Source: Pseudomonadota bacterium (GTDB lineage Bacteria > Campylobacterota > Campylobacteria > Campylobacterales > Campylobacteraceae). From it: 64,000 nucleotides of DNA. The notes under the pieces were generated by a model. That model saw only the letters and a list, made by a program, of their open reading frames with translations, had not been told where the DNA came from and searched no databases. Numbering within the stretch: the stretch's first letter is position 1; every line of letters starts with the position of its first letter. The stretch covers positions 1-64,000 of the forward strand of contig PDPI01000024.1 in the NCBI GenBank assembly GCA_002746565.1. Reading direction: 5' to 3'. The position numbers and the translations under genes were made by a program. Shown one piece after another: positions 51,416-52,769 of the stretch.

Positions 51416-51516
51416 ATAAAAACCTTTCGATTAAATAAGATGGTATGATACCAAAAAAATGGTTAAAATATAGTTTATCGAAGAAAAAAATTTATAATTT
51501 GAAAAGTTTTTTTCGC

Positions 51517-51522
51517 TAAAAT
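51517..51522 (+). promoter_or_regulatory. Putative sense -10 (gcTAAAAT) of the small-peptide locus
   Basis: T-rich upstream (TTTTTTTCGC) then TAAAAT; Campylobacter sigma70-like. Confidence 0.45.
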
Positions 51523-51533
51523 GCCAAAAGAGG

Positions 51534-51563
51534 TTACGCCAGAGGGAGCAACCTCTGGCGTAA
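51534..51563. promoter_or_regulatory. Perfect 12-bp inverted repeat with hexaloop in the 5' UTR of the small-peptide ORF
   Basis: TTACGCCAGAGG-GAGCAA-CCTCTGGCGTAA. Confidence 0.85.
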
Positions 51564-51592
51564 ATATTGCCTCTGTTAGGAGGTGATATATT

Positions 51593-51658
51593 ATGTCGCT
51601 CAAAACACTAATAGTCGTAATTATAGCATTAATGTTGATAATTACAAAGGCTAACTAG
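51593..51658 (+). CDS. 21-aa hydrophobic peptide, candidate type I toxin
   Basis: MSLKTLIVVIIALMLIITKAN*; strong SD TTAGGAGGTGAT, with 8 nt between GGAGG and ATG; own hairpin, terminator and antisense -10. Confidence 0.7.
   Translation: MSLKTLIVVIIALMLIITKAN
51617..51628 (-). promoter_or_regulatory. Extended -10 (TGCTATAAT) on the minus strand inside the 21-aa ORF; candidate antisense-antitoxin promoter
   Basis: Minus strand reads ...aaTGCTATAATtac...; transcription would run over the start codon, SD and 5' hairpin. Confidence 0.5.
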
Positions 51659-51662
51659 CCTT

Positions 51663-51684
51663 AGCCCCCATTATATGGGGGTTT
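51663..51684 (+). terminator. Rho-independent terminator of the small-peptide transcript
   Basis: AGCCCCCAT-TAT-ATGGGGGTTTTT. Confidence 0.85.
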
Positions 51685-51740
51685 TTAGTGTTTTGCCCTC
51701 TGGTAAAAAAGTGATTATTTTTTAAAATTAAGGAAAAAAC

Positions 51741-52205
51741 ATGTTAAAAGAAGGAACAAAAGCACCCGAATTTTGCTTACCAAATCAAGACGAAGTTGAA
51801 GTTTGCCTAAGGGATTTTAAAGGAAAATGGGTAGTTTTATATTTTTACCCAAAAGACAACACCCCAGGTTGCACTACCCAAGCTTGCGATTTTACCGCTT
51901 CTTTTCCAGAGTTTAACTCTCTTAACGCAGTCATACTAGGGGTTAGCCCAGATAGCCCTAAAAAGCACAGAAATTTCATTGAGAAAAAAGATTTAACCAT
52001 AACTCTACTAGCCGACGAAGAAAAAGAAGTAGCAAAACTCTACAATGTTTGGCAACTAAAAAAGTTTATGAGCAAAGAATACATGGGTATAGTCCGCTCA
52101 ACTTTTCTCATAGATCCAGAGGGCAAAGTCGTGAAAATTTGGGATAAAGTTAGGGTTAAGGGTCATGTTGGGGCAGTAAGGGAAGAGTTGGAAAAACTTA
52201 ACTAA
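51741..52205 (+). CDS. bcp: Thioredoxin-dependent thiol peroxidase (Bcp/PrxQ)
   Basis: 'VVLYFYPKDNTPGCTTQACDF'. Confidence 0.95.
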   Translation: MLKEGTKAPEFCLPNQDEVEVCLRDFKGKWVVLYFYPKDNTPGCTTQACDFTASFPEFNSLNAVILGVSPDSPKKHRNFIEKKDLTITLLADEEKEVAKLYNVWQLKKFMSKEYMGIVRSTFLIDPEGKVVKIWDKVRVKGHVGAVREELEKLN

Positions 52206-52530
52206 TAATACTATTAACTATCCCCAAAGCTTGCTCTAAAACATCTTTTGGGGAACGTTCTACAAATTTTATTTTTCGTGAATTATAGTCGATGAATTTT
52301 AACTGCTCGCACATAATAAAGCCTTCTATTTTTTCATGCTTTATTTTCACATGAAAAGTAAAATCACGCTTTATGCTTGTTATTGGACAAACATAGGCTA
52401 AACCTAAATGGGAATTAAAAGTTTTATTACTAACAACCAAGGCTGGTCGTCTTCCCTTTTGCTCATGCCCGCTTTGTGGGTCAAAACTCAAAACCACCAA
52501 ATCCCCTTGTATTGGAATATATTTTACCAA
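52198..52530 (-). CDS. mazF: MazF-type endoribonuclease toxin
   Basis: 'IPIQGDLVVLSFDPQSGHEQKGRRPALVVSNKTFN', 'VCPITS'. Confidence 0.92.
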   Translation of the reverse strand: MVKYIPIQGDLVVLSFDPQSGHEQKGRRPALVVSNKTFNSHLGLAYVCPITSIKRDFTFHVKIKHEKIEGFIMCEQLKFIDYNSRKIKFVERSPKDVLEQALGIVNSIIS

Positions 52531-52769
52531 ACTTCTAACCCCATTTTATCTGAAATTTCCTCATGAGGCTTATAATCTTTTGGAACTTTTTTTACCAATT
52601 CTTTTATATTGTATTTTTTTCTTTGTAACTTCTGAGGCTCAAGTATGATTTTTTTATCTACCACACTCATCTTGACCCTATCTCCAACAGATAAATCCAA
52701 TTCATTTAATATATCTTTTGGAACCCTCAGAGCTAGAGAATTTCCCCATGATGAAATAGTTGCTAACAT
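52524..52769 (-). CDS. mazE: MazE-type antitoxin (AbrB/SpoVT fold)
   Basis: 'ISSWGNSLALRVPKDILNELDLSVGDRVKMSV'. Confidence 0.92.
   Translation of the reverse strand: MLATISSWGNSLALRVPKDILNELDLSVGDRVKMSVVDKKIILEPQKLQRKKYNIKELVKKVPKDYKPHEEISDKMGLEVW

Follow-up and report, generated by a model that had tools for sequence, protein, structure and literature searches.

Among the described systems that come closest to the locus presented here, hok/Sok is characterised by an inactive full-length mRNA with 5'-3' pairing, by 3' processing, by an antisense antitoxin and by carriage on plasmids, while its toxin Hok comprises about 50 residues and is overlapped by the mok frame. In work by Arnion et al. 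dating from 2017, mRNA structures similar or homologous to those of AapA reportedly allowed comparable systems to be recognised in numerous genomes of Helicobacter and Campylobacter. For aapA/IsoA, it was established experimentally that the full-length mRNA is closed by a 5'-3' interaction and that 3' truncation activates it; in addition, hairpins mask the Shine-Dalgarno (SD) sequence of aapA during transcription, and lethality ensues without IsoA (PMC6733600). Moreover, the folding of aapA is conserved at loci of related species, and a parallel to hok/Sok has been drawn for it (PMC6733600). In the Ibs/Sib system of Escherichia coli, IbsC requires both its centre and its C-terminus (PMC8309996).

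The locus to be compared with these systems lies in the window, i.e. the whole stretch of 64,000 nucleotides that was analysed, where an unannotated gene for a hydrophobic peptide of 21 residues (GRAVY 1.9) is situated between ilvE and bcp. An earlier note on this DNA had read it as a candidate type I toxin-antitoxin (TA) locus with AapA/IsoA as the closest comparison, a reading that is supported by the conserved open reading frame (ORF), the antisense promoter, the covariation and the long-distance helices LDI-1 and LDI-2. The ORF, the SD, the TAAAAT and the 12-bp hairpin are all present where that note had placed them, and it had the elements of the locus apart from the LDI tail, the SD hairpin and a second genomic copy. 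The features are the following.

51517-51522, plus strand: sense -10 element TAAAAT, read in the sequence; most family loci have TATAAT here.
51534-51563, plus strand: 5' hairpin of 12 perfect bp, TTACGCCAGAGG/CCTCTGGCGTAA, also on the antisense RNA.
51539-51546, plus strand: leader strand of LDI-1, CCAGAGGG, complementary to 51697-51704.
51564-51589, plus strand: SD-sequestering hairpin, in which an upstream anti-SD CCTC pairs with GGAGG.
51578-51587, plus strand: Shine-Dalgarno sequence AGGAGGTGAT, read in the sequence.
51593-51658, plus strand: candidate toxin ORF of 21 aa, MSLKTLIVVIIALMLIITKAN, from translation and family conservation.
51601-51611, plus strand: ORF strand of LDI-2, CAAAACACTAA, 11-bp perfect pairing with 51685-51695.
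51620-51625, minus strand: antisense (candidate antitoxin) -10 element TATAAT inside the ORF, preceded by TGC; the plus strand reads ATTATA.
51526-51613, minus strand: predicted antisense RNA of about 85-90 nt, deduced from the -10 element, its 3' end being uncertain.
51647-51662, plus strand: hairpin containing the stop codon, from the predicted fold and family covariation.
51663-51683, plus strand: terminator-like hairpin CCCCC..GGGGGTTTTT, read as internal or leaky.
51685-51695, plus strand: tail strand of LDI-2, TTAGTGTTTTG, identical in sequence to the 5' part of the predicted antisense RNA.
51697-51704, plus strand: tail strand of LDI-1, CCCTCTGG, which covaries in relatives.

Sense transcription is expected to start near 51528-51530, and in a set of 60 non-redundant family loci, whose members are at most 80% identical, 46 have a perfect TATAAT at the site equivalent to the sense -10 element. 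The RNA 51526-51690 folds at -68.2 kcal/mol compared with -36.8 +/- 3.9 kcal/mol for dinucleotide shuffles (z = -8.1; reached by 0 of n=200). In the family, the helices matching the 5' hairpin exhibit compensatory changes at every pair, with 88-99% of cells paired, and the helix of the SD hairpin likewise features both-side changes at every pair. In the predicted fold of the window, the latter joins 51564-51574 with 51579-51589; the SD, near-perfect as the earlier note held, is hence not free but paired within this second hairpin. Of the terminator that was proposed at 51663-51684, the hairpin stands, but it probably does not mark the transcript end because conserved tail pairing continues beyond it at 51685-51704. 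The retention of the same elements in homologues argues that those of the locus are not due to chance, and the window copy, which is chromosomal, appears intact.

A protein search of 60 relatives with the 21-aa peptide returned the query itself and nothing else, so that DNA and covariance searches were needed. At the DNA level, elements with 67-78% identity turned up in regions devoid of annotated genes on the cryptic plasmids pAJ3, pTJ3 and pADS1 of Campylobacter concisus and on such plasmids of Aliarcobacter butzleri, as well as on the chromosome of another member of the family, G103. In the covariance search, which the earlier note had proposed, model R1, built from nine loci (the one in the window plus eight relatives), recorded hits in 88 of the 398 Campylobacteria genomes searched (E <= 0.01 each, the E-values of such home-made models being rough). 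These genomes belong to 15 of 69 genera and to five families, and they often contain several copies, sometimes in tandem. One further R1 match, on the minus strand at 51442-51569 of the window, was disregarded; it overlaps the 5' hairpin, which is nearly palindromic. In Campylobacter coli (G130, C1:977310-978470, L174), three tandem copies occupy about 850 bp, and two of them carry the variant end IILLMLCYVKAY. Pfam and NCBIfam, for which short queries are insensitive, held nothing usable for the peptide, and a literature search for the peptide strings, with Arnion 2017 and Fozo 2010 outside its coverage, found no paper.

The contexts in which the modules occur comprise small and conjugative plasmids, tandem arrays and variable chromosomal sites. 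This bears on the idea that the element is a regulatory leader peptide or cis-regulatory RNA for downstream bcp, which its position directly upstream of that gene on the same strand and its SD-sequestering and terminator-like hairpins would suit. Yet the relatives sit in many other contexts, plasmids of both kinds included, and other Campylobacterota have no such element at bcp. Furthermore, the locus matches no Rfam family above threshold, and a leader would need neither a conserved antisense promoter nor a covarying tail, all of which makes a bcp leader extremely improbable. Just past bcp, the minus strand of the window holds at 52198-52769 what looks by eye like a type II toxin-antitoxin pair resembling MazE/MazF (ORFs 52524-52769 and 52198-52530).

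With respect to the coding capacity of the family, a simple rule finds the ORF in the right place in 103 of 104 inspected matches, and nearly all inspected peptides contain the core (I/V)I(I/V)IILLCII(V/I)VKAY behind variable N-termini. The family peptides, 19-25 aa in length, share this core, which ends in ..IILLCIIVVKAY. RNA structure is the strongest signal of the family and its copies move and duplicate, features that would also befit a structured mobile or non-coding RNA element with an incidental ORF; this is nevertheless highly improbable, given that all 60 non-redundant loci keep the aligned ORF with a stop at the same end point and a conserved IILLCIIVVKAY-type sequence, and that third bases vary while residues hold in the codons outside the antisense promoter.

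The window peptide, although it is devoid of the usual VKAY end, is by its sequence a divergent but clear family member. A look for other copies in the genome, again an idea of the earlier note, revealed a second one at G000:C30:80191-80347 (L117:1692-1848, L122), which encodes the peptide (L)RLIILVPIVLLFVIVSKLY, has a damaged SD, CGAGACGA, and TACAAT instead of TATAAT as its antisense -10 element, and is probably decaying; further copies may be missing because the source genome is 58% complete. The state of this second copy, together with the absent VKAY end and the sense -10 TAAAAT of the window, would suit the alternative that, within a real family, the window copy has become a non-functional remnant in decay. 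That is unlikely, however, for a copy that keeps a perfect SD, the ORF, the antisense TATAAT with its TGC, the 12-bp hairpin, an 11-bp LDI-2 and an 8-bp LDI-1.

The extended -10 element that the earlier note had spotted within the ORF on the minus strand, TATAAT with TGC, was confirmed, and TATAAT recurs in 57 of the 60 non-redundant loci at one fixed codon position. The codons over this element specify two Ile residues, the first being ATT in 58/60 and the second ATA in 59/60 loci (the remaining one is GTA), and their third-base entropies amount to 0.21 and 0.00 bits as opposed to 1.28-1.86 bits at the four preceding codons. Ascertainment by the model adds some bias but cannot fully explain this constancy, since most matches score far above threshold. 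The predicted antisense RNA would cover codons 1-7, the start codon, the SD and the 5' hairpin; read on its antisense strand, the leader also folds well (z = -4.8). The U-run that had been taken as a possible antisense terminator turned out not to be a family feature, as no strong U-run terminator for the antisense RNA was found across the family.

Covariation was assessed in 107 aligned matches, where 36 of 43 pairs change on both sides and double-change cells number 447 versus 127 in shuffles, none of 500 of which reaches the observed count. The covariation score is 0.359 compared with 0.05-0.08 for slid controls; although fitting the alignment to the model tilts this analysis towards structure, both kinds of control, slid and shuffled, fall far short of the observed values. 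For LDI-1, the mean energy of the 60 loci with their own tails is -22.6 versus -20.5 in the best of 10,000 permutations, and it is this permutation of means that is decisive, the own-tail rank test being just moderately sharp because related loci have tails in common. Relatives replace both strands of LDI-1 in concert (CCTGTGG/CCACAGG, CCTCTAGC/GCTAGAGG, CTCTTGGGG/CCCCAAGAG). In LDI-2, codons 3-7 of the ORF form base pairs with the segment just 3' of the terminator-like hairpin; the family mean of -15.1 exceeds all 10,000 permutations (-9.96, sd 0.36, minimum -11.4). Used as a control, the remaining half of the ORF gave no tail-pairing signal in the same test. Since the antisense RNA is complementary to the same segments, the mRNA tail is identical in sequence to parts of the predicted antitoxin.

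In the predicted folds of 47 out of 60 loci, codons 3-8 are paired to a greater extent when the RNA is full-length than when it is trimmed. The SD, on the other hand, is mostly paired in both forms, with an unpaired probability of 0.25 in the trimmed versus 0.22 in the full-length RNA; as it stays so after trimming, minimum-energy folding alone does not explain the activation step, and this constitutes the main gap in the mechanism as modelled. In the minimum-energy fold of the full-length window RNA, both the 5' hairpin and LDI-2 are retained, and AGAGG (51529-51533) is joined with CCTCT (51697-51701). Forcing the 8-bp LDI-1 in the window yields -61.0 versus -80.2 unforced, a cost which suggests that LDI-1 would compete rather than coexist with the 5' hairpin.

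What can be read from the sequences themselves is a hydrophobic peptide of 19-25 aa, an SD hairpin, two covarying long-distance helices and a promoter on the opposite strand. The combination of a conserved hydrophobic ORF, a near-invariant internal antisense promoter, a covarying mRNA structure and mobile contexts is the pattern of type I systems, and the locus very probably represents a type I TA module with a mode of action like that of AapA/IsoA and hok/Sok. Counting against this reading are the sense -10 of the window, which deviates from TATAAT, and the lack of a strong U-run terminator for the antisense RNA in the family. The full-length mRNA of about 180-200 nt would be stable and untranslatable, because its tail, which has the same sequences as the antitoxin RNA, would occupy the antitoxin target as well as the early coding region. 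Trimming at the 3' end would strip the tail and render the shortened mRNA translatable, unless the antisense RNA of about 85-90 nt pairs with it and directs it to decay by RNase III. Loss of the antisense RNA, be it through plasmid loss or through stress that silences its promoter, would allow the peptide to enter the inner membrane and growth to stop.

Carriage on plasmids is extensive: a blastn query derived from G130:C2 matched 301 plasmid records, 300 of them from Campylobacter and 260 typed as conjugative, pTet of C. jejuni 81-176 included, while a second query matched 262 Campylobacter plasmid records, mostly partially. The pTet module (L246:2501-2753; NC_008790 26369-26621) is encoded opposite an annotated type IV secretion gene, whose start region it overlaps, as it does the end of an adjacent hypothetical gene; the secretion gene may have been annotated with the wrong start. 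The plasmid copies are predicted to act as a stability module, and modules on pTet-type conjugative plasmids could account for their stable upkeep without selection. It is conceivable, though put forward with considerable doubt, that the ..IILLCIIVVKAY peptides form a toxin class not described so far, with the mRNA architecture of AapA, that the helix between codons 3-7 and the tail turns the mRNA tail into a built-in copy of the antitoxin, and that the class provides the unrecognised stability module of pTet-type conjugative plasmids of C. jejuni and C. coli. In view of the aapA studies (PMC6733600) and of the survey cited at the outset, the locus is best regarded as an addition to an already known type of system; with it, numerous modules that are probably type I TA systems and that are invisible to annotation are added in Campylobacter, Aliarcobacter and Helicobacter, and the covarying tail affords base-level predictions of how such mRNAs stay silent.

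In comparison with AapA/IsoA, the locus has a small hydrophobic ORF, an internal antisense promoter element, a 5'-3' LDI and a local anti-SD hairpin. The likeness to aapA of H. pylori extends to the -10 element, the 5' hairpin, the short ORF with TATAAT opposite to it, the terminator-like hairpin, a tail complementary to a strand of the 5' hairpin, and the occurrence of multiple chromosomal as well as tandem copies. On the contrary, the AapA toxin (30 aa, KR end, MATKHGKNSWKTLY...) is unrelated to the ..VKAY peptides of 19-25 aa: no recognisable sequence is common to the family peptides and AapA1, whose sequence was taken from PMC10537873. Neither of the covariance models R1 and R2 recognises the H. 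pylori aapA modules, and the tails differ in their target, the third anti-SD of the AapA3 tail covering the SD itself and the tail of the window family the leader and codons 3-7. Judged by its architecture, the locus thus belongs with AapA/IsoA and is expected to work like it, whereas by toxin sequence it does not belong there.

A module of Helicobacter sp. G336 (L242:1129-1275, minus strand) encodes 20 aa, MLKIVFIIALICVILLKPLY, in the layout of the window family with a post-hairpin LDI-2. It lies 0.4-0.7 kb from classical aapA copies, scores 17-24 bits with the covariance models and may connect the two toxin classes in evolutionary terms.

With hok/Sok of plasmid R1, the family has in common the inactive full-length mRNA with 5'-3' pairing, the 3' processing and the antisense antitoxin, as predicted for it, and carriage on plasmids; its window ORF of 21 aa differs from a Hok-type peptide of about 50 aa. 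Ibs of E. coli, a purely hydrophobic toxin of 19 aa, is similar in composition, and neither the Ibs peptide models of Pfam and NCBIfam nor Sib in Rfam gave a match, a comparison of low power for 21 aa. Unlike Ibs/Sib, the window family features an mRNA sealed between its 5' and 3' ends, and in this respect it resembles hok and AapA.
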